Virus record (IMG/VR): IMGVR_UViG_3300042691_008696
Coordinates: 1-25,001 of that record
Origin: a virus
DNA length: 25,001 nt
Direction: 5' to 3' (one strand)
Within the stretch, counting starts at the first letter, position 1, and every line of letters starts with the position of its first letter. Positions 1-19,877 of the stretch are shown one piece after another. The translations under genes were made by a program, and so were the position numbers. The notes under the pieces are model-generated. The model saw nothing but the letters and a program-made list of their open reading frames with translations. It searched no databases and had not been told where the DNA came from.

Positions 1-112
1 GCAGGATAAACACAGCGAGCCGCTGCGATTGCTCGTAACGGCTCTCCCGGTGCTGTGGTTGTGGCCTGCAGGATGCCAAGGCCGTGAATATGACGGTCCC
101 AGTGCTTTCAGG
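1..112 (-). other. Left window edge, no start codon resolved
   Basis: After the stop of the large distal protein, 112 bases remain on the minus strand. Two reading frames stay open to the edge, but none has a convincing start with a ribosome site. No terminator is seen directly after the stop. The frame continuous with the large protein ends at the edge in hydrophobic residues (LAVFIL). The next gene probably starts just outside or uses a non-ATG start. Confidence 0.3.
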
Positions 113-3121: not shown

Positions 3122-3126
3122 ATCGT

Positions 3127-3486: not shown

Positions 3487-3487
3487 G

Positions 3488-4336: not shown

Positions 4337-4740
4337 CAGGGCACCTGAATTTCTGTTGCTTTAATACTGAGGTCAAGTTGCGTTGTGCTTGATGCCGTTC
4401 CCAGTCGAGTGACGTAGGAACCAGTAGCACGGTCGACGTTTGGCATGATGCCGCCGGCTGTTGGTGACACTAAATACGTTTCGCCTACCACCATCGTTGT
4501 ACCAACAAAAACGATCGGACCACCGGTAGCCATGATTCCATATCCGTCGGCAACTCCCGGAGTCATCGCGATACCTTCAGCCGCAGCAAGTGCAAGCGAT
4601 GCATTCGCGTCCGCCGCCACGAACTTACTCGAGCTTTGAGCAAGCGGCTGTCCGACCGATACAGTTCCGCCGTATTGCACAAGGCGAAACTGCGTGTTTG
4701 CTGTGGGTCTGACTGCTGTGATGCCGCTGAGATCCGCCAT
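4336..4740 (-). CDS. Small beta-rich virion protein of unknown function
   Basis: This 134-residue product is Gly/Ala/Thr-rich with very few charges. It has a repeated beta layout: FRLVQYGGTVSVGQPL, then ADANASLALAAAEGIAM, IVFVGTTMVVGETYLV and SPTAGGIMPNVDRATG. It resembles small phage proteins that decorate virions or cap fibres (GETYLVSPTAGGI and LGTASSTTQLDLSIKA segments). Its place after the tape measure points to the tail tip, though related proteins are found near capsid genes in other phages. It overlaps the tape measure by TAATG and the next gene by TGATG. Confidence 0.7.
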   Translation of the reverse strand: MADLSGITAVRPTANTQFRLVQYGGTVSVGQPLAQSSSKFVAADANASLALAAAEGIAMTPGVADGYGIMATGGPIVFVGTTMVVGETYLVSPTAGGIMPNVDRATGSYVTRLGTASSTTQLDLSIKATEIQVP

Positions 4741-6650: not shown

Positions 6651-7009
6651 GTGAACCCGAATGCTCTCTTTAAGATATCAGACTGTGCTTTCGGATGCGT
6701 TATGCCACGAGTTTTTCGTTTCGTCCGTTTCTGCCATCGGAGGGAATCCGACGGCAGAAAATCTACCACGCTCATCGTGTCCATTTTGACGCCTCGCGTA
6801 GCTGCCAGAATCGCACTGTTCGCGTGCACTGTCGCTGCGATCGACGCTACCTGTTCCCAGTGCGACCCGAACGGCTCACATTGGTAATACGCCCACCATA
6901 CTTCAAACACTCGTTCTGGGATTGAGTCCAACCACGCTTCCGGATCGTCTATTCCAAGCTCGAGACAGACTCGGCAAGCGAACCGGAGACGGTGGTTACG
7001 ACGGACTCC
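6647..7009 (-). CDS. Tail assembly chaperone, -1 frameshift extension (gpT-like)
   Basis: This frame has no good start codon of its own; a TTG at 6931 would cut off the conserved beginning. Read from the G5 run at 7012-7008 in the -1 frame, it gives an arginine-rich link, then VCLELGIDDPEAWLDSIPER and FEVWWAYYQCEPFG, the typical pattern of the T domain, then an Ala-rich helix and a basic C-terminus (KRTKRKTRG). The fused protein would have about 233 residues. It ends with ATGA overlapping the tape measure start. The fusion is inferred from frame and motif continuity; the site is a P-site GGG that can re-pair exactly after slipping, not a full classical heptamer. Confidence 0.75.
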   Translation of the reverse strand, partial: GVRRNHRLRFACRVCLELGIDDPEAWLDSIPERVFEVWWAYYQCEPFGSHWEQVASIAATVHANSAILAATRGVKMDTMSVVDFLPSDSLRWQKRTKRKTRGITHPKAQSDILKRAFGFT

Positions 7010-7347
7010 CCCAGCATCTCGGGAGCCTCACTGACTCGCGTGAACTGCTGGCACTCTTCCGACAGTTTTTGGTAGAACCTCAAATCGATCGACCCCAGCG
7101 CCTTGAGTTCAGTATCCTTGAATAGCCGCTCGCCCTCGTCGTCAATCCACATACGAGCGACAAGCAACATGATCGCGTCGTTTAAATTCGTCGCGTTCCA
7201 TTTGCCGTCCTTGTCCACCAGTGACATCTGATATTGAGAAAACTCCAGCGGTGTTGGACGTTGAATCCGAACCGCGTTGCCGTTGATCTCAAGATCTTTT
7301 GTCGCTCGCTTTGTGAGCTTGCCTAACGTCGCTCGCGTTAGTGTCAT
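6949..7347 (-). CDS. Tail assembly chaperone, upstream frame (gpG-like)
   Basis: This is the first part of a frameshifted chaperone pair. The 132-residue product has the typical sequence of a tail assembly chaperone before the tape measure: DLEINGNAVRIQRPTPLEF, then NLNDAIMLLVARMWID and LGSIDLRFYQKLSEECQQ. The start overlaps the small upstream gene by ATGA. Near the end, codons 112-114 read CTG GGG GAG, a run of five G (7012-7008), after which the -1 frame stays open into the next gene. In lambda and many other siphophages the two frames give gpG and the fused gpGT, which bind the tape measure and recruit tube protein. Confidence 0.85.
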   Translation of the reverse strand: MTLTRATLGKLTKRATKDLEINGNAVRIQRPTPLEFSQYQMSLVDKDGKWNATNLNDAIMLLVARMWIDDEGERLFKDTELKALGSIDLRFYQKLSEECQQFTRVSEAPEMLGESVVTTVSGSLAESVSSLE

Positions 7348-7613
7348 ACGTCGTCATCCTCTTGTGGTTGCAGGTCAATATCGACGGGCATCACAACGCC
7401 GCCAATGGTCAGTGCTGCCGTTTTGTTGACGGCCTCGATCAGTTCAGCTTTCGTGTTGTCGTCAAAGGTAACGATACACTGCAGCCAGGAATTGGGTTCC
7501 TTTGGCAAATACCCAACCTGAATGTCATCGCAAAACACGATCCATTGACCGTGATCTACTGGCGTTCCGTTGGGTGATTCGCCCACGTGATCAATAAGCT
7601 TGATATCCATCAT
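7344..7613 (-). CDS. Small tail-region protein of unknown function
   Basis: The 89-residue acidic product starts MMDIKLIDHVGESPNG. Its middle has a strand HGQWIVFCDDIQVGYLP, then WLQCIVTFDDNTKAEL and a short helix, ending in an acidic DIDLQPQEDDDV tail. Two adjacent ATG codons at 7613 and 7610 are possible. It lies between the tail tube and the chaperone genes and overlaps both by ATGA, so it is translated with them. No family is recognised; a tail assembly role is inferred from position. Confidence 0.75.
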   Translation of the reverse strand: MMDIKLIDHVGESPNGTPVDHGQWIVFCDDIQVGYLPKEPNSWLQCIVTFDDNTKAELIEAVNKTAALTIGGVVMPVDIDLQPQEDDDV

Positions 7614-8062
7614 GATTCCCGAGTTTGCGCGAGTGATTCGCCAGTCATTTTGAGGGTGAATTCCGAGTCCATCGTTTCATTGTTGGCCATCTGAGGAAAC
7701 GCCACACGGCTGAAGAATGCTTTGCCGGTGATTGTGCCGCGAGTCACTCCGCTGGTTGCGGTGCTAGCCTGCGGCAGTGTGACCGTCACCGTTGCAACGG
7801 TGCCGTCGATTGGCGGAACTCCCAATGCAGCACTGAACCGCACTACTCCGCTGATTTCGTTCGGCACAGCCAAGTCATGCGGGTCCACTCGCATGAAGCC
7901 GGTGTCCGACAGCAGCGTTACGTCTCTTTCTCCGAGAGTCCATTCGCCCGGATTGATCGATACGATGTTTCCAGCCCATGCCGTAGTGATGCCCGTAGTC
8001 TGTGCACCGCCCAATGTGATCGTTGCAGTGTTTCCAGTTTTAAAACGTGTTCCAGTGGCCAT
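7610..8062 (-). CDS. Major tail (tube) protein
   Basis: The 150-residue product starts MATGTRFKTGNTATITLGG, is beta-rich with many Thr, Val and Gly, and carries TGFMRVDPHDLAVPNEISG, matching phage tail tube subunits. A strand-rich second half (VATVTVTLPQ, then MDSEFTLKMTGE) fits the tube domain. It would polymerise into the hollow tail through which DNA is delivered. The order terminator, tube, chaperones, tape measure supports the call. The stop overlaps the start of the next small gene. Confidence 0.82.
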   Translation of the reverse strand: MATGTRFKTGNTATITLGGAQTTGITTAWAGNIVSINPGEWTLGERDVTLLSDTGFMRVDPHDLAVPNEISGVVRFSAALGVPPIDGTVATVTVTLPQASTATSGVTRGTITGKAFFSRVAFPQMANNETMDSEFTLKMTGESLAQTRES

Positions 8063-8064
8063 GT

Positions 8065-8493
8065 TCAGATTGTCTCCTGATATGCGATCATGTAATCAAA
8101 AACGGTCAGGTATCGATGTTCCTGTGATCCATCCGTCGGCCGTTCATCCAGTGTCTGAATGCCTCCGGAAATCATCACAGCTTCAATAAACACACCACCC
8201 ATTGCTCCGGTATACCCCTGCAGATCACTTGTTCTCACGGCCTCTGCGATCAGATTCGCACCCGCTCTGGTGGATGCGAATGCAGTGAACTCAATTCTAC
8301 TTCTGGCGATTCCTGCCAGTCCGTTGATTAAATGATCGTGAATGGTGCTGATGACTGTGTACGTCAACGCTCCGCCCGTTCGTATTGTGTAGCCCTGTGG
8401 CAGCACATCAGGATAAATGCGGCTTGACACCAACGCAGCCACGCCTGTGTTGGCTGCCAGATATCCACGTACTGCGCTGCCGATATCCGCCAT
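8065..8493 (-). CDS. Tail terminator-like protein (DUF3168 type)
   Basis: This 142-residue protein has the DUF3168 pattern. It starts with a helix IGSAVRGYLAANTGVAAL, then RIYPDVLPQG with a strand, and YTVISTIHDHLINGLAGIAR. SRIEFTAFASTRAGANLIAEA is the typical RxQ/E-strand and helix. A C-terminal RYLTVFDYMIAYQ strand closes the fold. Such proteins cap the tail tube and join it to the connector. It lies between the gp10-like gene and the tail tube gene, the usual site, and its stop comes two bases before the tail tube start. Confidence 0.85.
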   Translation of the reverse strand: MADIGSAVRGYLAANTGVAALVSSRIYPDVLPQGYTIRTGGALTYTVISTIHDHLINGLAGIARSRIEFTAFASTRAGANLIAEAVRTSDLQGYTGAMGGVFIEAVMISGGIQTLDERPTDGSQEHRYLTVFDYMIAYQETI

Positions 8494-9035
8494 CAGTTAG
8501 CCGCCTGTTTTGCGGCCGCATCAATTCCCGCTTTCAAACTTGCTTTTACTGCTGATGCTGCCGCAGATTTCGTTTCGTCTGCCGTTCGTTTTACGAACTG
8601 ATTCACCTTTCGCACTGTCCCAGCATCGCGACCCCATAACACCTTGCGGTTGTGATCTCGCGAAAACAGATTTCCGTGCCCGCCTCCGTCACTGTAGGAT
8701 GGTCCAACCAATCCTAGACGGCCAACGATTTGCCCGAATTTGCGTTGTGGACGCACGACGGAACGAATCGTGGTTTTCAGTTTTTTTGCACCACTCCATT
8801 TCTGTTTTGTTTTTGCTGACTGCTGTCGTCTGCCGTCCTGACTTTCTGGCGTGTTGGCAATCATTGCCGACTCAACCGGACGGCTGCCGGCCTCAATCGC
8901 TTTTGTCAGAACCGTTGTTTGCACTTCGTACACCAACTTCTGCAGCGCCTGCACTAACTCATCACCGTTAATCAATTCCATGCCGACCGACACGCCATGC
9001 CGTCGGCCGACAGTTTGTTTTCGAGGTCTGGCCAT
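8493..9035 (-). CDS. HK97 gp10-like tail completion protein
   Basis: The 180-residue product has a basic N-terminus and an ELVQALQKLVYEVQTTVL helix followed by AIEAGSRPVESAMIANTP, the hallmark of the HK97 gp10-like family. A Lys-rich segment (KTKQKWSGAKKLKTTIRS) and the loop VGPSYSDGGGHGNLF follow, and the last 50 residues form an Ala/Lys-rich helix (TRKVNQF-type to KQAAN). It acts at the head-tail interface or in tail completion. The gene starts at the TAATG overlap; an internal ATG 18 codons later (MELINGDEL) is also possible and is where homologues often start. Downstream overlap is TGATG. Confidence 0.8.
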   Translation of the reverse strand: MARPRKQTVGRRHGVSVGMELINGDELVQALQKLVYEVQTTVLTKAIEAGSRPVESAMIANTPESQDGRRQQSAKTKQKWSGAKKLKTTIRSVVRPQRKFGQIVGRLGLVGPSYSDGGGHGNLFSRDHNRKVLWGRDAGTVRKVNQFVKRTADETKSAAASAVKASLKAGIDAAAKQAAN

Positions 9036-9382
9036 TACAGCACCACCGATTTGCAGTAGAGTTCTCGATACCGATCCATTCCCTGCACTGGCTTCACGTA
9101 GACGATGTAGAATCGCTGCCCCTCGAAGTCGATTGCCATTTCTGGCGTGTAGCCGCTCCTGTACCGCACGGTGAAAATAGCACTGATACCAGCCTCCACC
9201 TGTCTACCTCTGGCTCCTTCTCCGCCCGTCGTCGGTTCCATCTTTGCCGGTTCATCGGCTAACCATCGATTGACCGTTACCACAGGCTGGCCAGCAGCGT
9301 CCTGAGTCGTAGTTTCCACGCTGACGGTGATGCGATGCCGCATTGTCCCGAGCCGGAATTTTCGTTCAGGGCGAAACGTCAT
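9035..9382 (-). CDS. Head closure / head-tail joining protein
   Basis: The 115-residue product has the layout of phage head-tail joining proteins (SPP1 gp16 or HK97 gp7 type). An N-terminal LGTMRHRITV strand is followed by TQDAAGQPVVTV, a Trp-Leu-Ala-Asp segment (NRWLADEPAKM), a strand FTVRYRSGY and the C-terminal YIVYVKPVQGMDRYRELYC. It would close the connector channel and offer the tail docking surface. The ATG overlaps the connector stop by ATGA and the next ATG overlaps its TAA, matching the canonical order connector, closure, gp10-like, terminator. Confidence 0.85.
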   Translation of the reverse strand: MTFRPERKFRLGTMRHRITVSVETTTQDAAGQPVVTVNRWLADEPAKMEPTTGGEGARGRQVEAGISAIFTVRYRSGYTPEMAIDFEGQRFYIVYVKPVQGMDRYRELYCKSVVL

Positions 9383-10011
9383 GGATAGCTGGCCCTCATT
9401 TTTTTGGCGACCAAAGCCTCATACGCTTTTCGTTCTCCGGGTGAGGCAATCATGTCTCTGTCCTCAAACCGATTTGCTAGGCTGAGCTTAATGGCCATGC
9501 GATCCAATTCCGGACACGCGGCCGACGTAGTCCCATAACCTGCCGTGTACGTTATTCGCACGGCCTCACTACGATCCTGCAGAATAGGCTTTACAAATGT
9601 GTCGAGAAATCGCAGCTCATCGCCATCCAAATAATACTCAGACGAGGAAATAGTCTGTTCCGTACCTGCGGCATCCATGTATTTTACCGACGATATCGCA
9701 ATCACCGGCCGCACAGTCAACGTGATAACCTCCAGCAGTTTTGGTAGCCGATGCTCGAGCGTTCGTGTAATCAGTGCGATCGACGTGTCGCGTTCCCATT
9801 CCTCACGTGCGGCTGCGATGATTGCCACAAGTTCAGTGTCGTGACTATCGTCGCTTGCTCCGATGCTGAGCTGTGCCTTCGCTTCTGCGATCGTTACTGG
9901 TTCGCTGGTCGGTGGTGTCACTACTCTGACCGTGTGGCGAATCTCCTGATCCTTGATTCGCGTCGTTCGGCTCTGGTAGTAATCTTGCCACGTTGTTGCG
10001 CTGCAGAACAT
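9379..10011 (-). CDS. Head-tail connector (gp6-like adaptor)
   Basis: The ATG at 10011 is preceded by GGAGG eight bases upstream, giving 210 residues; a GTG at 10020 overlaps that site and is less likely. After about 27 atypical residues the conserved core starts: VRVVTPPTSEPVTIAEAKAQ, the usual opening of gp6-like connectors. It continues DTELVAIIAAAREEWE, a strand-rich middle ending YYLDGDELRFLD and a late GYGTTSAACPELDRMAIKL. Connector rings sit below the portal and receive the tail. The unusual N-terminus lies in the region overlapped by the small upstream ORF. The stop overlaps the next gene by ATGA. Confidence 0.85.
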   Translation of the reverse strand: MFCSATTWQDYYQSRTTRIKDQEIRHTVRVVTPPTSEPVTIAEAKAQLSIGASDDSHDTELVAIIAAAREEWERDTSIALITRTLEHRLPKLLEVITLTVRPVIAISSVKYMDAAGTEQTISSSEYYLDGDELRFLDTFVKPILQDRSEAVRITYTAGYGTTSAACPELDRMAIKLSLANRFEDRDMIASPGERKAYEALVAKKMRASYP

Positions 10012-10096
10012 CAAACACACCTCCGCCGATCACATCCAACTGGAACCGTGAACCCATACGATAGCCGCGCCAGTCCTGCATCAACTCGACTTGCAT
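9845..10096 (-). CDS. Small ORF overlapping the connector gene in another frame
   Basis: The ATG at 10096 starts a frame with a sensible first half (MQVELMQDWRGYRMGSRFQ, then VFDVLQRNNVARLLPE). This resembles short phage proteins of 40-50 residues found between capsid and connector genes, of the type that starts with a Lys/Trp-rich DWRGY segment. The second half (about 40 residues, polar and basic, ending RSKRR) comes from the other reading frame of the connector gene and looks like overprinted sequence. The frame overlaps the glycosyltransferase by 16 bases and the connector by 167. Either the ancestral stop was lost or the frame is translated as a longer product. Function unknown. Confidence 0.55.
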   Translation of the reverse strand: MQVELMQDWRGYRMGSRFQLDVIGGGVFDVLQRNNVARLLPEPNDANQGSGDSPHGQSSDTTDQRTSNDRRSEGTAQHRSKRR

Positions 10097-10743
10097 GATT
10101 CAATCCATTCGTTCGGGTATGCGTGCACAGCTTCGTATGAGGTAGGGTCCACCATAACAACCATTTCCTCTAAGTGCCCGATTCGCGTTTGCGGATCAAG
10201 ATAAACGGTGTTGCCGGCTTTTTCCCATTGCTTCCAAAACCAGATATCGTCATCGATTCGCAGATCGCCCCATTCGCCGTGTTCGTCTGGCTGTGACCAG
10301 AACCACGGCTTTGGAACGTCCTTCAGTTTTCGCAAATCGATTACCGTCAGGCCGAAATGTGCGGTTGAGACCTGCAACGGCTCGCCAGTCACCTCGACCG
10401 ATGATTTCCCTTTGATGCTGGCCAGCATCGTCTTATTGCCGCGTCGGATCTGCATTGATGCTAGCGCGTCAATGTGCGGGTTTGCCTCAAGCGTTCCCAG
10501 AAGCCGCATGATGTCAGAATCTGTAAATAGAGAATCTCCATCACAAATTACGGCGATATCAACTTCGCGTTCTACGGCCTGCTGCAACATCCGCTGCATG
10601 CACTGGCCGTAAAACACACCTTGCGAATCCTGCAGAGGGATCTTTGCGGATACGAATGCCGCATCAATGTGGTCTCGACAGAGCCCGTTGATGTATCGCG
10701 GCGATGTCATCATCCCGCACACTTTGATAGATTTTAAGGTCAC
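10081..10743 (-). CDS. Glycosyltransferase-like protein (GT-A fold)
   Basis: The 220-residue product has a nucleotide-sugar-type layout. A strand leads to AVICDGDSLFT (D68 and D70, the metal-binding DxD). HIDALASMQIRR follows, then an acceptor-side segment FGLTVIDLRKL (130-140), an acidic DLRIDDDIWF (160-169) and a late histidine in TRIGHL (H190). These features fit small inverting GT2-like transferases. The GTG start has GGAG seven bases upstream. The gene lies between head genes, 29 bases after the capsid-associated protein gene and overlapping the next small ORF by 16 bases. It may glycosylate a virion protein or a host surface sugar; the substrate is not visible. Confidence 0.8.
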   Translation of the reverse strand: MTLKSIKVCGMMTSPRYINGLCRDHIDAAFVSAKIPLQDSQGVFYGQCMQRMLQQAVEREVDIAVICDGDSLFTDSDIMRLLGTLEANPHIDALASMQIRRGNKTMLASIKGKSSVEVTGEPLQVSTAHFGLTVIDLRKLKDVPKPWFWSQPDEHGEWGDLRIDDDIWFWKQWEKAGNTVYLDPQTRIGHLEEMVVMVDPTSYEAVHAYPNEWIESCKSS

Positions 10744-10772
10744 TCGTTTGCTCCGGGTGTTGTAGGAATGTG

Positions 10773-11216
10773 TCAGCCAATCGCGACGAAGTCAGCCTGT
10801 CCTGTGGTGCCGGATGGGTTCGTGTCCATCACAAGATCAGCAACCGCACTAAGTGCGACAACGCTGTTGGTAGTGTGCGTTCCAGGCGTCGCAAACAAGC
10901 GGATATAACGCTTTCGCGTACCGTCCTGATTCACATGAAATTTCGCGACACGTCCGGCTGTGGTCGACAGTGTGACTGACAGCTGCATCGTGGTTGTCGA
11001 AATGTCCGTGAAGTCAGTTGTGGTTGTGGTGTCCGATTCCTGAATTTTGACCACAACCGGAGCGGCGTTTGTGTTTGCTGCTGCTGAAGTGGTGAGAATG
11101 ATCGTCGCGTAATCCGCGTTACGCATATCAACAATGGAGCCAGCAACCGTGGCAGTTGCGGCTGCCGTCTGCGATGACAGTGCAATCACTGCCTGAGTCA
11201 TTTGATTCGGTTTCAT
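10773..11216 (-). CDS. Small virion protein, probable capsid-associated or decoration protein
   Basis: The 147-residue product is Thr/Ala/Val-rich and looks like a single beta-sandwich. It contains YATIILTTSAAANTNAAPVV, then KIQESDTTTTTDFTDI, and RKRYIRLFATPG. Many phages carry such a protein directly after the capsid gene, where it can decorate the head; I recognise the pattern but cannot name a family. The ATG has AAGGT six bases upstream. A 105-base gap with a hairpin separates it from the capsid gene, so it is probably expressed from capsid read-through at lower level. Confidence 0.7.
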   Translation of the reverse strand: MKPNQMTQAVIALSSQTAAATATVAGSIVDMRNADYATIILTTSAAANTNAAPVVVKIQESDTTTTTDFTDISTTTMQLSVTLSTTAGRVAKFHVNQDGTRKRYIRLFATPGTHTTNSVVALSAVADLVMDTNPSGTTGQADFVAIG

Positions 11217-11249
11217 GTTTTTACCTTATGAAAATGATTTCGTTTTGTT

Positions 11250-11287
11250 GTCAGAAAGACCGGAACGCCAGCGAACCAGCGTTCCGG
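11250..11287 (-). terminator. Hairpin after the capsid gene, possible weak terminator
   Basis: CCGGAACGC (minus, 11287-11279) pairs perfectly with GCGTTCCGG (11268-11260) around a ten-base loop; TCTTTCTG follows. The T tract is broken, so termination would be partial, allowing some read-through to the next genes. A smaller CCGGGT/ACCCGG stem lies just upstream. Typical of dose control after a capsid gene. Confidence 0.55.
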
Positions 11288-11321
11288 CCGGGTCCACCCG
11301 GAGCGACGAGTGGGTCAGTTA

Positions 11322-12671
11322 TCAGCCCATCTGGATCATCAGCAGCGGACCTGCAGCCGAAGCTGTTCCGCGTTCATGCACGTTGATGTCGAAACGCTCT
11401 GTGACTCGCAACGCCAAAGCGTCCTGAGCAAAGTAGAGCGATTCGTCAGCTCGCAGCGTCACACCGCGACGTGTTCCCATGGTGGCAGCCATTGCCAGAT
11501 CACCGAAGTAGGCAATCTTGGTTCCGGACGATGCCGTCGACGGCAGTGTCTGAATGAACCGCACTGGATAGCCGAGGAACTGCAGCACAGGGCCGCTTCC
11601 CAGATCCTGCACGGTGTTTCCACCGGCAGCCATCTGCAGGCGTCCCATAGACGCATGGTAGACGGCTTTGTGGACGTACCATGCTGGCTGAATGCCTGGG
11701 AATTCTGGCAGCTTGCCGACCGCTTCTTGGAACGTGCCAATCAGCAAATTGGACAGGGCCGTAACGCCGGTTGCCGTGACGATTGACCCTGCAGCCAGGG
11801 CATTCGCCACACCCGTAATGCCGCCAAACGTGCTGGTAGCATCACCGAGAAAACCGCACTGGTCTTCACGGACTGCCAGAGCGTAGGCAAACTCCCGAGC
11901 GTAGTAATCCGCGACTGAAATGATTGAATCTTCATTCAGTTCGCTGGAATACTGCGTTAGAGCAGCCAGTTTCTTGGCTTCCAGTCGCACCTGATCCAGT
12001 GCGGTGACAGATGTCGTGATCGTGTCATTCTGTCCCACGAAATACGTGGTGAATCCAGACACGCGACGAGGAACAAGCGACACGTCCGAAGTCATTGGCC
12101 AGTTCATGGCGTAACGACGGAACATGCCGAATTCTTCTTTCAGGTCGATCAGAGCGTTTTCCAACACTTCCGGGACGAGGTAGCCGCCCTTGCTGTTGTC
12201 GTCGCTGCTGTGCTGCATAGATACGCCATGATCCTGCAGCCACATTTTCGACTTCTGATCACCACCGATGGCGGCCATCAAAAATCGGCCGGTCAGATAG
12301 GCGTTTGCCTCTGCGTCTGGCCCTTTGAAGTGCTTGACAGTGCCGTGACGCTTCGCAGTCGCGGGGACTTTGACGCGGGGCGGGTCTGCCGTAGCAATTG
12401 CCGTGCTGTCGGTTTGGCTGCCGACTTCGAATGAGCCGATCGAGCGAACTCGAGCGGCTAAATTCTGCGACATTCGTGCCGCTCGCTTTTCGTCTGCATA
12501 CAGTTTCTGCAGAACGCCAGGCTTGTCGTCGGTGCCCTGAATGCGATCGACTTCGGCAGTTTCTTCTGCCGTCAGATCGCGGTTCTCGTCTTTTGCCAGA
12601 GCAACAATCGCGTCGACTTTGCCAAGCTCTTCGTCGATCTGCTCACGAATTACTTTGAGATTCCAAATCAT
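11322..12671 (-). CDS. Major capsid protein, HK97 fold
   Basis: The 449-residue product starts at the ATG at 12671 (AAGGA nine bases upstream; a GTG at 12677 is too close to that site). The first 100 residues are helical and charged (LKVIREQIDEELGKVDAI), matching the scaffold-like delta domain removed by the prohead protease. The shell domain starts around residue 155 with GGYLVPEVLENALIDLKEEFG, and contains FRRYAMNWPMTS, a typical N-arm and P-domain order, and an A-domain segment (AWYVHKAVYHASMGRLQ). It ends DINVHERGTA. The gene has its own promoter and structured leader, in keeping with the high dose needed. A hairpin follows the stop. Confidence 0.95.
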   Translation of the reverse strand: MIWNLKVIREQIDEELGKVDAIVALAKDENRDLTAEETAEVDRIQGTDDKPGVLQKLYADEKRAARMSQNLAARVRSIGSFEVGSQTDSTAIATADPPRVKVPATAKRHGTVKHFKGPDAEANAYLTGRFLMAAIGGDQKSKMWLQDHGVSMQHSSDDNSKGGYLVPEVLENALIDLKEEFGMFRRYAMNWPMTSDVSLVPRRVSGFTTYFVGQNDTITTSVTALDQVRLEAKKLAALTQYSSELNEDSIISVADYYAREFAYALAVREDQCGFLGDATSTFGGITGVANALAAGSIVTATGVTALSNLLIGTFQEAVGKLPEFPGIQPAWYVHKAVYHASMGRLQMAAGGNTVQDLGSGPVLQFLGYPVRFIQTLPSTASSGTKIAYFGDLAMAATMGTRRGVTLRADESLYFAQDALALRVTERFDINVHERGTASAAGPLLMIQMG

Positions 12672-12680
12672 TTTCACGGT

Positions 12681-12707
12681 TCCTTGAGTCGTTGTTATGC
12701 CGACTCA
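12681..12707 (-). promoter_or_regulatory. Hairpin abutting the capsid ribosome binding site
   Basis: TGAGTCG (12707-12701) pairs perfectly with CGACTCA (12691-12685), with a nine-base loop. The Shine-Dalgarno AAGGA (12685-12681) starts at the foot of the stem, nine bases before the ATG at 12671. Such a stem may stabilise the messenger or act as a translational operator. The pairing is seen; the role is inferred. Confidence 0.55.
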
Positions 12708-12714
12708 GGCCATG

Positions 12715-12770
12715 AAAAAAGCGGCGCAAAAAGTCGGCGAAATGGTTTCGCTTTGACTTTTCCGGCCGCT
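12715..12770 (-). terminator. Nested hairpin with T tract in the capsid leader (terminator or attenuator)
   Basis: On the minus strand three arms nest: AGCGGC with GCCGCT (12770-12765 and 12725-12720), AAAAGTC with GACTTTT (12761-12755 and 12735-12729), and GCGAAA with TTTCGC (12751-12746 and 12742-12737) around a three-base tip. Six T residues follow (12720-12715). This is a strong intrinsic terminator shape between the capsid promoter and the capsid gene. It could end a short RNA of about 105 bases or attenuate capsid transcription. Confidence 0.75.
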
Positions 12771-12827
12771 AACGAGTTGCTCAGAAAATTCGTGTTCGGT
12801 GCAGGATGTCTCCCCCGCGTGATTGTG

Positions 12828-12857
12828 ATTCTAGGCTAATACCGTCGGTTATGTCAA
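12828..12857 (-). promoter_or_regulatory. Strong sigma-70-like promoter before the capsid gene
   Basis: The minus strand reads TTGACA (12857-12852), a perfect -35, then an 18-base spacer, then TAGAAT (12833-12828), five of six for the -10. It starts just after the stop of the small zinc-ribbon gene and would begin transcription near 12821, about 150 bases before the capsid start. It is the best promoter match I found in the window. Confidence 0.75.
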
Positions 12858-12871
12858 TAGGTTTTTGCGAC

Positions 12872-13063
12872 TTAGCACTTACCGCCGCATTGAGGACAAA
12901 TACCTGGGTTACGGCCACCGGCACAAATCAGCCAGACGATCAGCCATAACCCGCCGGTGAGCAAGCTTAGCAATAAATGCAGTACATGGTTTGCTGTCCG
13001 CACATCCGCGACAACTCGCTTGTTGCATTGATTACAATTACGAGCTTCTTTAATCATCGCCAT
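12872..13063 (-). CDS. Small zinc-ribbon membrane protein
   Basis: The 63-residue product starts at the ATG at 13063, with GGGAGA seven bases upstream. Two Cys pairs, CNQC near the start and CPQC close to the end, flank a hydrophobic hairpin-like segment (HVLHLLLSLLTGGLWLIVWLICAGG). This is a compact design common in small phage and bacterial membrane proteins in which the N- and C-terminal CxxC pairs form one zinc ribbon on one side of the membrane. The gene is isolated between two terminators and a promoter that serves the capsid gene, so it looks like an insertion (moron-like) in the head operon. A role in superinfection exclusion or membrane targeting is speculation. Confidence 0.78.
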   Translation of the reverse strand: MAMIKEARNCNQCNKRVVADVRTANHVLHLLLSLLTGGLWLIVWLICAGGRNPGICPQCGGKC

Positions 13064-13075
13064 AACGAGTCTCCC

Positions 13076-13118
13076 AATAAAAAACCCGCTCACGAGTGGT
13101 CAGTCTCGTGGCGGGTTT
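13076..13118 (-). terminator. Intrinsic terminator after the protease gene
   Basis: On the minus strand AAACCCGC and CACGAG (13118-13105) pair with CTCGTG and GCGGGTTT (13096-13082), giving 14 base pairs with one bulged A and an eight-base loop. T residues continue to 13079, followed by ATT. The end of the T tract abuts the GGGAGA ribosome site of the next gene, so expression of that gene needs read-through or another structure. Confidence 0.82.
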
Positions 13119-13138
13119 CCCAACACGGCCGGAACCGC

Positions 13139-13167
13139 ATTATTTATTGTTTACCATTTCTGACCAA
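13139..13167 (-). promoter_or_regulatory. Weak candidate sigma-70 promoter
   Basis: Minus-strand TTGGTC (13167-13162) and AATAAT (13144-13139) are 17 bases apart. The -10 matches the consensus at five of six positions and the -35 at three. It lies just before the terminator hairpin at 13118-13076. A short inverted repeat (CCATTT/AAATGG) overlaps the -35. Low confidence. Confidence 0.25.
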
Positions 13168-13213
13168 ATGGCTGTGTTGCAATCGTAAGGTTGGCGAGCC
13201 AGGTGATCAAGCG

Positions 13214-13882
13214 TTATCGGCCGAACATCGCTTTTAGTTGCTGAAGTCGTATTTCGCGTGATGCAATCATTGCGGGAGTCCTGCTGCCTGCGTGCGGTTC
13301 ATGCGTTTGAGCCTTATCAGGCTTTCCACCATACATCGCTTTGGCGAACGCTGGCGCGTCTACGACGATATCACCGACCTCCGTCGCAAATCCGGCAGCG
13401 ACTGCTTCCGAAGCGGTGTACCATGTTTCCGCGTCGAGGATTTCTTTAACTGCGTTGCGGGTTTTCTTTGTTCGTTCAGTGTAGGCGTCCAGAATGGAAT
13501 CGCGATATTTATCCAGCACGTCGGCCGTTTTGCGAAGCTCCTCTGCAGATCCCATAGCCATCGTCCATGGATTGTGCACCATCATCATGGCGTTTTTTGC
13601 CATGACGACACGATCACCAGCCATGGCAATGTAACTGGCGATGGAGTAGGCCGACGAATCAACTACGACGTCCAAACCACCCTGATGGCGTTTCGCTGCG
13701 TTGTAAATCAAACGACCTTCATCAACGCTGCCACCCGGCGATCCTATTCTTAGCGTAACTCTGCGGCCGCTCATTTTAGCCAGATCCGGAAGCACTGTTG
13801 CCGCATCAATCATCCCCCACAGAGATGATCCGATAGCGTCATAAAGAAAGATTTCGCCTGTTTCGTGATCAGCCTGGTACAT
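13214..13882 (-). CDS. ClpP-like prohead protease (S14 family)
   Basis: From the ATG at 13882 (AAAAGG nine bases upstream) the product has 222 residues; earlier TTG and ATG starts at 13918 and 13912 lack ribosome sites and overlap the methyltransferase more. It shows the ClpP fold signature: RIGSPGGSVDEG, then the nucleophile region SSAYSIASYIAMAGD (S80), and the histidine in MMMVHNPW (H103). An acid from the later DAETW segment may complete the triad. Phage ClpP-like enzymes mature the prohead by removing the capsid scaffold segment. Its position upstream of the capsid gene fits. The basic C-terminal 45 residues (HEPHAGSRTP and after) look flexible. An intrinsic terminator follows about 95 bases downstream. 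Confidence 0.92.
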   Translation of the reverse strand: MYQADHETGEIFLYDAIGSSLWGMIDAATVLPDLAKMSGRRVTLRIGSPGGSVDEGRLIYNAAKRHQGGLDVVVDSSAYSIASYIAMAGDRVVMAKNAMMMVHNPWTMAMGSAEELRKTADVLDKYRDSILDAYTERTKKTRNAVKEILDAETWYTASEAVAAGFATEVGDIVVDAPAFAKAMYGGKPDKAQTHEPHAGSRTPAMIASREIRLQQLKAMFGR

Positions 13883-14504
13883 AGTTCGCGACCTTTTCGA
13901 CAAGAGAGTCATGGACAAAAATAGAATTGACTCGTGTCGTCCCGAGTCGCGTGTAACTGTGCTCGGCTGCGATTGCTTTCAGCGTCGCAGCGTTATCCTG
14001 AATTGTGAACCCATCACTTAACTGTTCACCCAATAACCAGCTAGGAACCTTTTGCACGATCTCAGCATTTTCCGGATGACATCGGTCAAAATGCTCGACC
14101 ATCACAATGTGCGGTGTGCATCTTGCGAGAACCTCGTCCAAAATCATTGAATCGATACTGTCGACGTCAATTACAACCAGCAGCGGAAACGGTGCGAACT
14201 CTTTTGCATTGTTTGGCACGAATTCGCCGCGATGTGTCGCTTGTGGGTATCTGACCATCAGCATCCCAAGCGATTTCGGATCCACCTCAAACAACAGGCA
14301 CTCATTGCCGCTTTTGTAAAACGGGTCGATTGTCAGCGGTAGCGTGTCGCCGTTTCCTGCTCCAATTTCCACACATTGACCATCTATCACGCCGATGGCT
14401 GCGGTTATTGCCAGCAAAATACACTGCTCGCCAAATTGCCAGCCACCGGCTTCCTTGCGAAGCCAGTCGAATTCCGGCCTATCCGCTACGAAACCCTGAT
14501 TCAT
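13869..14504 (-). CDS. SAM-dependent methyltransferase, FkbM-like
   Basis: This 211-residue protein has class I methyltransferase landmarks. Motif I is CVEIGAGNGDT (residues 44-54), an acidic end of strand two is LLFEVDPKS (E73, D75), and the strand-four motif is VVIDVDSIDS (D113, D115), followed by a helix and PHIVMVEHF. The IDVDSID pattern recalls FkbM-type O-methyltransferases (IDVEG). No DNA-recognition domain or NPPY/DPPY motif is seen, so DNA methylation is unlikely. It would act on a small molecule, sugar or protein. Its ATG overlaps the portal stop, and its end overlaps the protease gene by 14 bases, so it is embedded in the head operon between portal and protease. The substrate is unknown. 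Confidence 0.78.
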   Translation of the reverse strand: MNQGFVADRPEFDWLRKEAGGWQFGEQCILLAITAAIGVIDGQCVEIGAGNGDTLPLTIDPFYKSGNECLLFEVDPKSLGMLMVRYPQATHRGEFVPNNAKEFAPFPLLVVIDVDSIDSMILDEVLARCTPHIVMVEHFDRCHPENAEIVQKVPSWLLGEQLSDGFTIQDNAATLKAIAAEHSYTRLGTTRVNSIFVHDSLVEKVANYVPG

Positions 14505-16096
14505 ACTGTCGCTCCAAGTATGTTGTCAGCCAATTCCTCGACACGTTCGCCCCATGCCGCCGTAAGTTCCCCCACAGCGTCCGGCAATGCTTTTACGGCT
14601 GTGCGTCCCATCATCTCAATGAGTGCGTCCTGCGATTGTCTGCAGTGCTCAGCGGCCGCATAAGGTGTGCCTCCCAGCTGTTCACACACATCAGATAAGG
14701 TGTCCTGCCATTTTGCGTAGAATCGCTCGACAGCGGCCACAGGTGATTTCGTTTTCATCGCAGCCGCTACTCGCTGCTGTTCAATTGCGAGCAGTGGGCG
14801 AAGTCGGGAAACAATCGCCATTCGCTGGCGTGCGTCCGGCTCGGAATCATCGTCCGGTTCTGGATTGTCTGGCACATCTTCCGGCTCATCGACTGGTTCC
14901 GTCACTGTGATGGCTGGATTTTTGTATTCGTCCCCGCCCTCATACGGATTCATTTCCAGTTTTTCCCGTGCCTCGTTAGGACTCATGACAGTGGCCGCAA
15001 TCAGTTTCGTCAGGTACTCCGCCTGTTTCAGCGGATCCATTCTCATGAGTGCGTTGGTATTAAATTTGAAATAGTGTGTTTCACTGGTTAACTGACGTTC
15101 TGTCAGCAGAGACCGATTGCAGGCCGCTTCGATGTGCACCAGCCAGCGGTTCAGGCAGTTCGTTAGGTAGGCGAGATGCTTTTCAGCAAGGCTGTTGTAA
15201 GAAACGCTGGAATCATCGCCGAGAATTTCCTCAAGACAAAACCACATCGCCGCTTCTTGCCGCTGGAACAGCCGCTGCTCAATCCATTGCGAGTCTTTGC
15301 CTGACATCGACACCATATTCGCCTTAATGCCTTCGCGTAGCATCGCCGTTTTGCCTGTGTTTTCTGCTCCGTCATGAGCCTCGCGAAACATCGACAGGAA
15401 CTTTTTGGCTTCCTCCTCGTTGCGGAACATTCCGCCAGGGGCTTCTAGAATCAGCGATCCGCTAAAGCCTTTTTTGGCGAGGTTTCTTACCTGATCTTCA
15501 GCAGACAATCCCGCGTCGAGACTGTTACTCATGACTGCAGAAGCATTTAGCCCCGCCAGTCCATTGAAACTGAGACCGTGCACGAAAAACACGTCCTCAT
15601 CTGGAAACCACACGGTCTGGCTGTCTTCCGTCACGCCTAGTAATTTCGCTAGCGGCTCATGCTTGCATAATACCGTGCCGTGGTATCGCTTACCCTCGTA
15701 CCATTCACTGCCTGATCGGTCTGGCAATAGTGGATACAAGCCGACTGGCCGAGATCCCTCCCGCACAATCAAGCATCTCCAGTTACCGTACAGCAGCAGG
15801 CTCGGCGCACCAAACATCTTCCATTCAGGAGCAGTCTGGTACTCGTTCGGGCGAGTGTGAACCAGTTTATGACCGGGATGAGAACGCTCGACTGTGCTGC
15901 CACGCTCGAGCCGTCGATGGCAGTTTATAGGCAACTGCGAAAAGTGCCCGGCAATCTTGTTGACTGCGTACCATACTGGCGCATATTCAATTGCTCTTCG
16001 TGGCGTGACCTTAGAGTCGCCAAATTCCGGCGAAACGCCAAAAAAAGCACTCAAACCTGAGCCAATTCGTGTGATAAACCGTCTAAACAGGTCCAT
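14501..16096 (-). CDS. Portal protein, HK97 type
   Basis: The 531-residue product begins MDLFRRFITRIGSGLS and has the typical portal layout: an early segment YAPVWYAVNKIAGHFSQLP, a central QVRNLAKKGFSGSLIL region, a helical clip and stem region, and the conserved QEAAMWFCLEEILGDD with NSLAEKHLAYLTNCL (around residues 290-325). It forms the dodecameric ring at the capsid vertex through which DNA passes. I start it at the ATG at 16096; a TTG at 16111 overlapping the terminase stop would add five residues, and neither has a strong ribosome site. The C-terminal 120 residues include an acidic Pro/Asp-rich stretch (EPEDVPDNPEPDDD) and a helical tail. The stop overlaps the methyltransferase start by ATGA. 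Confidence 0.93.
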   Translation of the reverse strand: MDLFRRFITRIGSGLSAFFGVSPEFGDSKVTPRRAIEYAPVWYAVNKIAGHFSQLPINCHRRLERGSTVERSHPGHKLVHTRPNEYQTAPEWKMFGAPSLLLYGNWRCLIVREGSRPVGLYPLLPDRSGSEWYEGKRYHGTVLCKHEPLAKLLGVTEDSQTVWFPDEDVFFVHGLSFNGLAGLNASAVMSNSLDAGLSAEDQVRNLAKKGFSGSLILEAPGGMFRNEEEAKKFLSMFREAHDGAENTGKTAMLREGIKANMVSMSGKDSQWIEQRLFQRQEAAMWFCLEEILGDDSSVSYNSLAEKHLAYLTNCLNRWLVHIEAACNRSLLTERQLTSETHYFKFNTNALMRMDPLKQAEYLTKLIAATVMSPNEAREKLEMNPYEGGDEYKNPAITVTEPVDEPEDVPDNPEPDDDSEPDARQRMAIVSRLRPLLAIEQQRVAAAMKTKSPVAAVERFYAKWQDTLSDVCEQLGGTPYAAAEHCRQSQDALIEMMGRTAVKALPDAVGELTAAWGERVEELADNILGATV

Positions 16097-16107
16097 ATTA
16101 TGGGCTT

Positions 16108-17814
16108 TCAAACGATGAATAGAGAACCTGTGGGACGTGATGGAGCTAACATCGCTAAGCGAATCCCCATCAACAAGGCTACCGCAGCGTCTATTTTCTC
16201 GCTCGAATTCCGCTTGTCGGGCATCATTTTACCTTGTGCATTGCTGGTTGTCATCATGTTAAGTGCACACCAGCGTAATATGTTGTCGGTCTTGTCGGGA
16301 GTGAACCTGTTTTCGCGAATGGCAGCCGATAGTTCTTGCATCGGCTCATGAAATTGGAAGCAGTTTTGAGGCATTTTTATGACCTCCAAACCTGCCTGTG
16401 ATAGCTCATCACCTAACTGAGCTGCGTTGTATGGGTCATATGCTACGGCACGAATTCCAATTTCGTCGGCGAGTTGCAAAAACACATCCCTGAGCGATGC
16501 GACCACGTATCGAACAACCGTCAATTCACCGGTTGCGATCCATCCAGCCCATGGCTGTTTTTTTAGGTCTCGACTCGTTTCGTCGACGATAAATGATTTA
16601 GTGAACCCTTCATATCGCCAGATGGTTTTGCCTTCGTCGTCTTCGTCTACAGGAAACCTAGCTACCACACCAAAACTCGCGAGGTCATCACGGCCGCCAA
16701 GGTCGATTCCTGCGGTAATTGCGTCCGCGTCACGCCATGAGGACAGACTGTCAGCCATATCATCCCAATCGGCCGGCAGAATAAATCGTTCGTAGGCGGA
16801 GACCTTGCGATTGCAGTGGTATCGCGTGAAGCGATTAAGTTCTACCGGTGAGGTTTTCGCTTTTGCTGCTGCTTCTCGAAGCGACTCTAAACCGATCGAC
16901 ACGTCAATATTTGGATTTGCTTTCGGCCACAGCGATTCGTCCAGTGCGTCGTCGTTTTCATCCAGTTCAAATATATATGAAAAATACGACTCGTCGACAA
17001 AATCACCACGCACCACACCCGTTGCGTAATTGTAATCCTCCTGCCAAAGCTGACTGGTATCGTCTCCTGCAGTAGTGAAATCACCTATTAACGGCTGAGA
17101 CCGGTTGCCCGACCCAGTCATCATTGTGTCATAAAATTTACGATGATGTTCACGCCATGCGTGCTTTTCATCCATCAGCACCATGTGAGGATTTAAACCG
17201 TCGAAAGGTTTGTCGCTTCCAATGCAGTGAATGTATCCCTTATTGTGACTGAACGTGATCTGCTTATTGATCGGAGTCGACAGGGCTTTTACGTGTTCGG
17301 ATTGTCCTCGCATCCGTTCGATTTCCGCATACATCACCTTCTGCACCTGTTCTCGTTTTGTGGCACACAACACCACTTCGGCAACATCTTCCGGACGTCC
17401 AGTAAACGGGTTCACGTCCGACATCGCGCCGAGTATTGCGATTCCCGAGCCGAGCGTAGATTTTCCGTTCTTGCGTGCCATCGTCCAAAAAAAACGACGG
17501 AACCTGCGGGTTCTGTCAGCGCATCGTTTCCACCCGAAAATATTCCAAATCCCGAACAATTGCCAGGGCTCAAGGACGAAGGGCATTCCAGAACACTTGC
17601 CGATGGAGTGCTTCAGAATTTGCGGGAAAAAATCACAGCATGCGGTAGCGGCATCGAGCGAAAAATAGTACGGAAACTCACTGCTGTTTTGCCGTTCAAG
17701 GTCGTCGAGGTATCGCTGAATTGCAGCACGATGCGACACACAAGACGCAATGCGACCGCTCAACACGTCCTTGACGTATTTGTCAACTGCCTTGTGTGCC
17801 TCATGCTTTTTCAT
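16108..17814 (-). CDS. Terminase large subunit (packaging ATPase and nuclease)
   Basis: The 568-residue protein shows both domains of the motor. In the ATPase domain the Walker A-like segment is ARKNGKST (113-120) and Walker B is VLMDEKHAW (D215, E216). In the C-terminal RNase H-like nuclease the metal-binding acids fit GIDLGGRDD (D371), AVAYDPYNA (D460) and KIDAAVALL (D542). The length matches HK97-type terminases. It pumps DNA into the prohead using ATP and cuts the concatemer. The ATG overlaps the small subunit stop by ATGA. The gene lies between the small subunit and portal, the standard order. Confidence 0.96.
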   Translation of the reverse strand: MKKHEAHKAVDKYVKDVLSGRIASCVSHRAAIQRYLDDLERQNSSEFPYYFSLDAATACCDFFPQILKHSIGKCSGMPFVLEPWQLFGIWNIFGWKRCADRTRRFRRFFWTMARKNGKSTLGSGIAILGAMSDVNPFTGRPEDVAEVVLCATKREQVQKVMYAEIERMRGQSEHVKALSTPINKQITFSHNKGYIHCIGSDKPFDGLNPHMVLMDEKHAWREHHRKFYDTMMTGSGNRSQPLIGDFTTAGDDTSQLWQEDYNYATGVVRGDFVDESYFSYIFELDENDDALDESLWPKANPNIDVSIGLESLREAAAKAKTSPVELNRFTRYHCNRKVSAYERFILPADWDDMADSLSSWRDADAITAGIDLGGRDDLASFGVVARFPVDEDDEGKTIWRYEGFTKSFIVDETSRDLKKQPWAGWIATGELTVVRYVVASLRDVFLQLADEIGIRAVAYDPYNAAQLGDELSQAGLEVIKMPQNCFQFHEPMQELSAAIRENRFTPDKTDNILRWCALNMMTTSNAQGKMMPDKRNSSEKIDAAVALLMGIRLAMLAPSRPTGSLFIV

Positions 17815-18305
17815 CCGCGTCCCATTCGTGCCATAATCTTGGCAAACGGATCCTCTTTTTCGTCATCCAGTTTCAGACTAGTCAGTTTCTGCCGGCTGGC
17901 TGGAGTCAAACCCAGCTCTGGCAGAAGTTTATTCATCTGCTCGCGAAACTTATTCATTTCTCCAACGTAGGCGTTTTTTGCAATGAACGTGTTGCCGGCT
18001 TTGTCGACTCCTTCAATTGCTAGTCCAGTGTTTGCCACCTGCTCGCGTGCCTCCATCCATTTTGCATAAGCGGTGCAATACGCTATCAGGATTTCTCGCG
18101 TGTCCGATGACAACACACCATTCAGTTTCAGGTCAGCACTCAACTCAGCCCACTTCTGCGATTCACGATCGTCAAACCACTCCGGCATCTGTGGAGATTT
18201 CCCATCCGCAACCGGAGCGGCCTTGTTCTTGCGTTTCGGATTCTTGCGAAACGCGCCCGTCGCTTCTTTGAGTTCAGCCGCTAACGGCTTTCTGCCCCTT
18301 ACCAT
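17811..18305 (-). CDS. Terminase small subunit, P27-like
   Basis: The gene encodes 164 residues from the ATG at 18305, which has GGGGG about nine bases upstream; a TTG at 18359 would add 18 residues. The sequence starts MVRGRKPLAAELKEATG. A basic segment follows (FRKNPKRKNK), then MPEWFDDRESQKWAELSADL, the pattern of P27-type small terminases, and a helical middle (AYCTAYAKWMEAREQV). The product would bind the packaging site and load the large subunit. The next gene overlaps it by ATGA and encodes the large subunit. About 76 bases lie between it and the HNH gene, with a small hairpin (ACAC/GTGT) but no convincing promoter. Confidence 0.88.
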   Translation of the reverse strand: MVRGRKPLAAELKEATGAFRKNPKRKNKAAPVADGKSPQMPEWFDDRESQKWAELSADLKLNGVLSSDTREILIAYCTAYAKWMEAREQVANTGLAIEGVDKAGNTFIAKNAYVGEMNKFREQMNKLLPELGLTPASRQKLTSLKLDDEKEDPFAKIMARMGRG

Positions 18306-18381
18306 TGTTAAGAACCCCCAATTTTGTGGACACATGCGTGTGCATAAACAGGCTATCAAGGACGACCGATCTCCAACATTA

Positions 18382-18717
18382 TCACCGCCCCCCTCCCCGT
18401 TGCCTCGCTAGCTCAATTGATCTATGACATGTCACACACAATGCCATCAGGTTGCTCCATTGCAACCTAAGCCATGGTGCTTCTGTGATGGGCACTATGT
18501 GGTGCACTTCCTCGGCAGCAATAGCTTTATCATTCTTCGCACACTCTGTGCACAATGGATTGTCTTTAATGAAACGTTCTCGCAATTGCTGCCAATCCCA
18601 GCCATAGCCCGCCTGTGTTGTACCTTGCTTAGATCGTTTCCTACCACGTCCGCACTGTTTGCATTCTTTGTCTCGCAGTGCAAGCACGGAACCACATGCA
18701 CACAGCCTGAGCGTCAT
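18382..18717 (-). CDS. HNH endonuclease (terminase-associated type)
   Basis: The chosen ATG at 18717 overlaps the stop of the fibre gene (ATGA); an upstream start at 18750 would overlap it by 37 bases. The 111-residue product has an N-terminal zinc-ribbon-like cluster (CACG then CKQCG, residues 6-22). The HNH core has C56-x-x-C59, V-H72-H73-I-V-P-I, N89 in WSNLMALC, and C94-x-x-C97-H98. These are the expected residues of a metal-dependent bba-metal nuclease. In HK97-like phages a small HNH protein next to the terminase genes assists DNA cleavage during packaging; its place directly before the small terminase supports the same role. A free-standing homing endonuclease is an alternative but less likely given the tight operon position. 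Confidence 0.9.
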   Translation of the reverse strand: MTLRLCACGSVLALRDKECKQCGRGRKRSKQGTTQAGYGWDWQQLRERFIKDNPLCTECAKNDKAIAAEEVHHIVPITEAPWLRLQWSNLMALCVTCHRSIELARQRGGGR

Positions 18718-19877
18718 GTGTCTGCCTTCGGTGCTGCTACCACACTGCACACACCCTGCAGATACATGGTCAGCGGTGCTGCTGCATCACGTAGAGCAAA
18801 CCGCAGTGTTCTTTCTGATGCCGTCACCGCTGATGGATAGGCGAATGTGACCACGTTGCTACCTGTTCCACCAACAGATATGTTCGAATTATTCACCGTT
18901 GCAACGTCTGTCCCTGCCATTGTTTCGAAGATTATTTGCAACGTCTTGCCGCTGAGATTAACAGCTGTTGTTCCGTCTGACTGGTATACAGTAATTGCCT
19001 GACTGATCGTTTCACCGACCACTGGCAGCAGCGTAACGCCGGCACTCCTGTTTGCCACGATGCCTGTTGCGGGAAGTACCGTCACCGTTGTGTTACCACC
19101 GCCTTCAATCCCGTCAATCTGATCACTCAGCGACTTGAGCGTATCGTTATCAGCACCTCGCATCGTTGTGATGGATGCCGCTGTGGCCAGTGTCGACAGC
19201 GTCACATCAATGCGGCCTGCGATGGTTGCAGTCCAAACGGCTGTGCTTAATGCAGTTGCTGCGAGTGCTGCGTTGTCGGTTCCACGCATGTCTGTATTCG
19301 TTGTGCACGTATCCACCAGCGTGACACGTGGCAGCGTTGCACCGGCTGCAAAGGTTGCTGTGTCGATTGCGTTGTCAGCGATTGCGTTTGCCGTGATCGC
19401 ATTATTCGCGATCGACGCAACCTTGACCTCTGGAATACCTGCCGCTGCGGTGATGTTTGTTCCGCCGAACTGCGTCACGTTTACCCCGCTGGCCAGTGCA
19501 GCCGAATCAGTCCCTCTCATGTATTCCGACTGAATCCCAAACGATCCACGAGGCACAGAGCGACCGTCGATTGATTTGGAATCGACCGTTTTTGCAGTGT
19601 TGAATTTGACCTGATAACGTGCTCCGGTAGTCCAAAATCCTGCATCTCCTGTGTCATTGCTGGTATCGATAATCAGCAGATGGCATCCCGTTTCAGAATT
19701 AAATGGGCTGGTGACCGTTAGCCCGTTTGTCGTGGCTTTCGCCGTCGCGGAACCGTTCTTGTAGATCGCAAAGTCACTAGTCGTGAACGCAGACGACGGC
19801 GCGACCGGAGCACCGGTGCTGGCAAACGTTTCAAAGTAAATTTCAATTGTCGCGTCTTCCGCAAGATTGCGAAACAT
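18714..19877 (-). CDS. Fibre or baseplate-like structural protein with repeated MRGTD segments
   Basis: The ATG at 19877 overlaps the previous stop (TGATG); a TTG three bases earlier is less likely. The N-terminal 115 residues resemble a beta domain seen at the start of many phage fibre proteins (IEIYFETFASTGAPV, then FAIYKNGS and HLLIIDTSNDTGDAGFW). The middle contains three copies of an MRGTDxAAL-type motif starting at about residues 120, 197 and 239, separated by low-complexity helical stretches (IANNAITANAIADNAIDTA) that suggest a trimeric shaft. The last 90 residues (ITVYQSDGTTAVNLSGKTL, then RTLRFALRD) resemble the N-terminal BppU-type baseplate domain. The protein is probably part of the tail tip or a fibre. 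It ends overlapping the HNH gene (ATGA). Confidence 0.72.
   Translation of the reverse strand: MFRNLAEDATIEIYFETFASTGAPVAPSSAFTTSDFAIYKNGSATAKATTNGLTVTSPFNSETGCHLLIIDTSNDTGDAGFWTTGARYQVKFNTAKTVDSKSIDGRSVPRGSFGIQSEYMRGTDSAALASGVNVTQFGGTNITAAAGIPEVKVASIANNAITANAIADNAIDTATFAAGATLPRVTLVDTCTTNTDMRGTDNAALAATALSTAVWTATIAGRIDVTLSTLATAASITTMRGADNDTLKSLSDQIDGIEGGGNTTVTVLPATGIVANRSAGVTLLPVVGETISQAITVYQSDGTTAVNLSGKTLQIIFETMAGTDVATVNNSNISVGGTGSNVVTFAYPSAVTASERTLRFALRDAAAPLTMYLQGVCSVVAAPKADT

Follow-up and report, generated by a model that had tools for sequence, protein, structure and literature searches.

A conserved leader before the major capsid gene of uncultured phages resembles an RNA switch with mutually exclusive pairings

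The major capsid gene of an uncultured phage lineage is preceded by a leader that looks like an undescribed RNA switch. Comparing related leaders shows, at the level of strand complementarity, that there are three pairings, that each is specific to its own leader and that they stand at a constant site ahead of the capsid gene. Sequence gives good support to a conserved leader that acts in cis on this gene and has putative pairings that exclude one another. We consider it probable (roughly 60%) that the region is a leader RNA controlling the capsid gene in cis, with two exclusive folds and a factor-triggered switch at a conserved motif; RNA switching, termination and the identity of the trigger are what we infer. 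Most work on the amount and timing of capsid synthesis in phages has dealt with promoters and antitermination proteins. In this case an entire uncultured lineage appears to carry a conserved RNA device on its capsid gene, with three linked pairings kept as the sequences change. Should the leader prove to switch, it would join the few cases in which a major virion gene is controlled at the RNA level, and it offers a defined part for reporter testing and a route to its candidate factor.

Promoter, leader and capsid gene in the window

The stretch of DNA analysed (the window) is a virus record of 25,001 bases with its virion genes on the minus strand. The leader element sits on that strand between a 73-aa open frame and the capsid gene (Table 1), whose start is more likely the ATG at 12671 than the GTG at 12677. 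The 73-aa frame (12872-13093, minus), located between the protease gene and the promoter, has CxxC pairs and a hydrophobic stretch and gives weak PHROG matches to families without a function; near-identical sequence is present upstream in two relatives (L003 and L022) and not in the others.

Table 1. Features of the capsid leader and its surroundings in the window
Feature	Position	Strand	Details
Sigma-70-type promoter TTGACA-18-TAGAAT	12828-12857	minus	TTGACA 12857-12852, TAGAAT 12833-12828
Small 5' hairpin GCGGGGGAGACATCCTGC	12801-12818	minus	At the predicted RNA 5' end; RNA fold
Motif GCAACTCGTTAGCGGC	12765-12780	minus	16-nt consensus GCAACTNRTYAGCGGC; last six bases are the 5' arm of P1
Strand 1, 5' side of the terminator-like hairpin	12743-12770	minus	1:2 complementarity, fold
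Strand 2 (X) GCCGACTT	12731-12738	minus	Partner strand 1, alternatively strand 3
3' arm GCCGCT of closing stem P1 (AGCGGC/GCCGCT)	12720-12725	minus
U-run (T6) of the terminator-like hairpin	12715-12720	minus	Strong here
Strand 3 (X') TGAGTCGGC	12699-12707	minus	Partner strand 2, alternatively strand 4
Strand 4, CGACTCA with the capsid SD AAGGA	12681-12691	minus
HK97-type major capsid gene	11322-12677	minus	Pfam PF05065 (1.9e-30), PHROG 10, TIGR01554
Virion genes: HNH nuclease, terminase small and large subunits, portal, ClpP-type head protease, 73-aa frame, HK97-type capsid, connectors, tape measure		minus

The near-consensus promoter proposed in the original prediction is present: it matches the consensus at 11 of 12 positions with an 18-nt spacer, is the top promoter-like site in positions 1-20000 of the window, and predicts transcription starting near 12821 on the minus strand. 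Promoter-like sites in the window are not in excess of chance (4 found, 3.9 expected). Despite this, we regard the promoter as conserved, because, among 43 distinct regions upstream of related leaders, 42 have TTGAC 40-105 nt ahead of the motif; this set was defined by motif plus stem, with no promoter required. The lone exception (L199) has a tRNA-Thr gene (anticodon TGT, 3135-3215, minus) in the promoter's place, which ends about 26 nt before the leader motif, near the RNA start predicted in its relatives. This placement suggests that what counts is an RNA having that 5' end. The small hairpin at the predicted 5' end is 100% paired in 17 relatives, with one compensatory change from G-C to A-U, and its sequence differs in other clades.

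Downstream of the promoter, the proposed 'three-arm nested hairpin' with six T residues holds as to the hairpin and the T6, but the arms are not separate: they are three stacked helices (~6, 7-8 and 6 bp) of one long hairpin (12770-12720), split by internal loops. Its G+C-rich stem AGCGGC/GCCGCT followed by T6 is what the sequence of an intrinsic (rho-independent) terminator would be expected to contain. The perfect 7-bp hairpin predicted to touch the capsid Shine-Dalgarno (SD) with its foot was confirmed as TGAGTCG (12707-12701) with CGACTCA (12691-12685) on the minus strand; the last A of the latter, at 12685, is also the first base of the SD AAGGA (12685-12681). A further complementarity had been missed: strand X, GCCGACTT (12738-12731), can pair with X', GAGTCGGC (12706-12699), and X' doubles as the 5' arm of the SD hairpin.

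Leader-specific pairings in related phages

Hundreds of uncultured relatives exist, many with the same leader. Searches of viral contigs yielded 80 loci of 276 confirmed relatives for the capsid and 80 of 144 for the protease, and at least 563 and at least 571 relatives were confirmed by alignment searches. The conserved element lies upstream of the capsid gene even where the capsids are just 43-48% identical, and within the clade of the window identity is 89-98% in the leader but falls to 76-84% in capsid DNA and 51-56% in the DNA upstream.

The motif keeps a fixed position relative to strand 1, of which it includes the first bases. Its sole full match in the window is the leader copy; no convincing second copy or complementary trans-acting RNA was found there, the window holding one site with three mismatches beyond the element (2 motif matches in all, 0.27 expected). 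A pattern combining motif and closing stem matched 64 viral contigs and lay directly before the capsid gene in all 61 that had at least 400 nt downstream, while a pattern of promoter plus motif gave 119 stretches, seven of which (L229, L257, L271, L279, L305, L308, L310) had no capsid gene downstream and were set aside as chance. Because the search itself required the motif, some of its invariance is built in. Across 84,980 genomes of bacteria and archaea, the motif and stem pattern had one match, by chance: it lies in Saccharopolyspora (L224) and was rejected as a host clue, being a gene-end terminator. Neither the nearest cultured capsids (only ~25-30% identical) nor plasmids (weak matches) indicated a host. 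One relative (L226) carries a second motif copy, GCAACTCATTAGCGGC, ~39 nt ahead of the functional copy, as though by duplication, and two others (L052 and L059) have the same layout upstream of the capsid gene with a shared stretch, CTAGAGTTCGGTTGTCATCGACTCGACGG, in place of the GCAACT motif.

With few exceptions, X before the P1 3' arm is complementary to X' after the U-run across 96 distinct leaders, and X' is in turn complementary to the ribosome site (strand 4). To separate pairing from base composition, each strand was scored by duplex energy against its own partner and against those of other leaders, with each 75% similarity cluster represented by a single leader (22 in all) and 20,000 permutations. 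Own-leader pairing exceeded swapped pairing for 1:2 (z 12.0), 2:3 (z 11.0) and 3:4 (z 10.6), with 0 of 20,000 permutations reaching the observed value in each case; the control pairings 1:3 (z 1.1), 2:4 (z -2.9) and motif:3 (z 0.3) were not leader-specific in the same 22 leaders. An ungapped-stem version had the same outcome for 2:3 and 3:4. The result was repeated in leaders that lack the motif, in 25 and then in 37 clusters; in the latter, with windows at fixed positions, 1:2, 2:3 and 3:4 each gave 0 of 20,000 and the controls were negative, although some start codons in this set were assigned automatically and may be wrong (for example in L343 and L386), which adds noise.

The swap test is free of alignment and therefore suits comparison between clades, where the register of 2:3 shifts. 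The sequences of strands 2 and 3 differ by clade yet stay complementary: GCCGACTT/GAGTCGGC, GTGGCAGTC/GACTGCCAC, TCGCCGGGT/ACCCGGCGA and CGTGAGCCA/TGGCTCACG. In 17 close relatives 2:3 is 100% paired and nearly invariant, and because the two strands hardly vary within the clade of the window, covariation of 2:3 rests on the differences between clades. Individual leaders with weak 2:3 pairing do occur (L056, L178 and L161). As judged from sequence, the pairings would be mutually exclusive, with one involving the ribosome site or terminator, as in attenuators.

Single leaders carry a weaker signal, because the stems are short. The three-strand score of the window alone gave p = 0.025 against shuffles, and p was at or below 0.05 in 16 of 22 leaders with the motif and 11 of 25 without it. 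The strong evidence for the pairings is comparative rather than drawn from the single window.

The U-run is less constant than the pairings. The window and most leaders have a strong one, but it is weak in one clade (L225-type), weak or lacking in L228, and missing both from a motif-less clade (L324-type) and from L302, where the U-rich tract is replaced by another hairpin, GCTATC/GATAGC, ~57-80 nt after the motif start, and the pairings around it are retained. The clades without a U-run likewise retain the other pairings. Since the U-run is weak or missing in some clades, the terminator is probably an addition or a lost part rather than the shared core of the leader family, which would instead be control of the ribosome site. 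The proposal that capsid expression is attenuated is therefore supported in form, by a conserved leader directly before the capsid gene with alternative pairings that include the SD, but antitermination late in infection is too narrow a reading, as termination is not universal in the family and the predicted ribosome-site control is.

These observations also bear on whether the promoter and terminator make a separate RNA of ~107 nt (about 105 nt in the original prediction) that acts elsewhere in regulation or packaging. An RNA of just this kind would result from the promoter, 5' hairpin and U-run, and the tRNA-Thr gene of L199 ends close to where the RNA start is predicted in its relatives. 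However, strands 3 and 4 lie after the U-run and are tied to the hairpin arm, several clades have no U-run, and the element was not found away from the capsid gene in any of the 61 contigs with motif and stem. We consider a separate trans-acting RNA very unlikely.

Predicted folds and a proposed switch

The RNA from 12830 to 12660 is predicted to fold with -61.1 kcal/mol (z -5.1), and none of 200 shuffled sequences folded equally well; in this fold the 3' part of the U-run region pairs across the SD with GTGAAAA at the capsid start. For most leaders examined, the fold predicted with no factor bound combines 1:2 with 3:4 and leaves the SD mostly paired. Enforcing 2:3 raises SD accessibility in most leaders (from 0.20 to 0.44 in the window); in L035 it is unchanged, being already 0.6. 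By nearest-neighbour energies, before any pseudoknot term, the closed fold is favoured by about 6-16 kcal/mol (median ~9), a gap whose true size is smaller, as the duplex value includes an initiation penalty. With the closed fold favoured, 2:3 might rarely form unless helped by a factor or kinetic trapping.

The leader is best read as an attenuator that would act on transcription and translation alike, on the pattern of erm and trp leaders but lacking a leader peptide. The dedicated promoter would produce an RNA starting near 12821. By default strands 1 and 2 would form the terminator-like hairpin, so that, where a U-run is present, most transcripts would stop near 12715; in RNA that reads through, strand 3 would pair with strand 4 and so mask the SD and the start codon of the capsid gene. 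The alternative fold would join strand 2 to strand 3, a pairing that rules out 3:4 and most of 1:2. As strand 2 is common to 1:2 and 2:3, and strand 3 to 2:3 and 3:4, a single event that keeps strand 1 off strand 2 during transcription could at once make the terminator weaker and expose the ribosome site. The trigger may be a phage or host factor, protein or other, that binds the motif GCAACTNRTYAGCGG; such a factor is preferred because strand 1 begins within the motif and the leader shows no sign of a leader peptide. The output could be activation or feedback repression. More tentatively, at somewhat less than even odds, the leaders may form a widespread, undescribed class of phage leader RNA that joins termination and ribosome-site hiding through a shared strand, with a factor at GCAACTNRTYAGCGG timing or metering capsid synthesis.

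Feedback by the capsid or another virion protein, which would bind the leader and fix the closed fold once abundant, is a form of the same explanation with repression instead of activation as its output. The element always lies directly before the capsid gene and co-occurs with this HK97-type capsid family, and autoregulation of a phage gene by way of a leader pseudoknot has a precedent in T4 gene 32 (PMC3014915). On the other hand, we found no RNA-binding feature in the capsid family, the motif is the same across capsids that are just ~40-50% identical, and relatives without the motif have similar capsids. Autogenous feedback appears unlikely, if far from negligible.

The strand order a, X, a', X' is that of an H-type pseudoknot, which makes coexistence of P1 and 2:3 a candidate structure, with energies calculated before pseudoknot terms. 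A static pseudoknot of this kind, with the U-rich tract as its third loop, would hold the ribosome site permanently open and protect the 5' end of an abundant mRNA with no switching. Both of its pairings are kept in clades lacking the U-run, and 2:3 is nearly invariant and fully paired in the clade of the window. But a permanently open site needs no conserved 3:4, and 3:4 equals 2:3 in leader specificity (z 10.6) and in several leaders reaches across the start codon; the part of 1:2 beyond P1, which excludes 2:3, is conserved as well. This makes a purely static structure unlikely.

A folding timer with no ligand is a further option, and one we regard as rather improbable. Here 2:3 would form on the nascent RNA, so that young mRNA is translated, and later refolding to 1:2 and 3:4 would shut it off. 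That strand 3 is made before strand 4, and that the closed fold is more stable, would suit a timer. Strand 1 and the P1 stem, however, are made ahead of strand 3 and would be expected to take up strand 2 before it can, and the conserved unpaired motif is left unexplained.

Relation to known systems and neighbouring genes

In erm-type (ermC) translational attenuators, four strands form 1:2 and 3:4 to hide the ribosome site and 2:3 to open it. The capsid leader shares this four-strand logic; it differs in that its 1:2 hairpin often ends in a U-run and that its putative target is the capsid gene of a phage. Of 22 leaders, 19, that of the window among them, have no start codon or open reading frame with an SD near strand 1, which argues against an erm-type leader peptide. 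Attenuators of the trp or riboswitch type have a terminator-like hairpin close after the promoter and a mutually exclusive alternative pairing, as the capsid leader does, but the latter has neither leader peptide nor known aptamer, and the alternative partner of its terminator arm lies downstream of the U-run. Pairing of 2:3 could therefore not itself prevent termination and would couple to opening of the ribosome site.

At lambda pR'-tR', which gives the 6S RNA and is subject to Q antitermination, a constitutive-looking promoter is followed by a terminator ahead of the virion genes. The capsid leader has the same order of promoter and terminator, whereas its block stands directly before the capsid gene and has strands in common with the ribosome site. 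Neither a gene nor a site resembling those of Q was identified. The T4 gene 32 leader pseudoknot, perhaps the sole viral example in translational autoregulation according to a 2010 review (PMC3014915), is similarly a phage mRNA leader with a possible H-type pseudoknot upstream of the ribosome site; as described there, it has no terminator and no competing SD hairpin, and its sequence and gene are unrelated.

Among cultured HK97-type phages, those with the nearest capsids (Halomonas QHHSV-1, Marinobacter AS1, Klebsiella Kpn74, Erysipelothrix phi1605, Synechococcus Ssp-JY37 and Burkholderia BgVeeders33) have the same portal-protease-capsid order as the window, but their protease-capsid gaps of 8-77 nt leave no room for a promoter and leader of ~150 nt. 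Rfam gave no match at gathering score in the window or in 20 relatives (133,637 bases); sub-threshold matches (CRISPR-DR20, snoRNAs) were judged to be chance. The phi29 packaging RNA (pRNA) was rejected as a candidate, with no Rfam match and the element tied to the capsid ribosome site. No capsid leader RNA of this kind was found in the open-licence literature, which is not proof of novelty.

Elsewhere on the minus strand of the window, positions 23846-24673, upstream of the packaging genes, encode a protein resembling papain-family cysteine proteases (Pfam PF00112, 3.4e-9), and the stretch at 21733-22437 has a weak, below-cutoff match to a PAS domain (PF13426, 9.5e-5).
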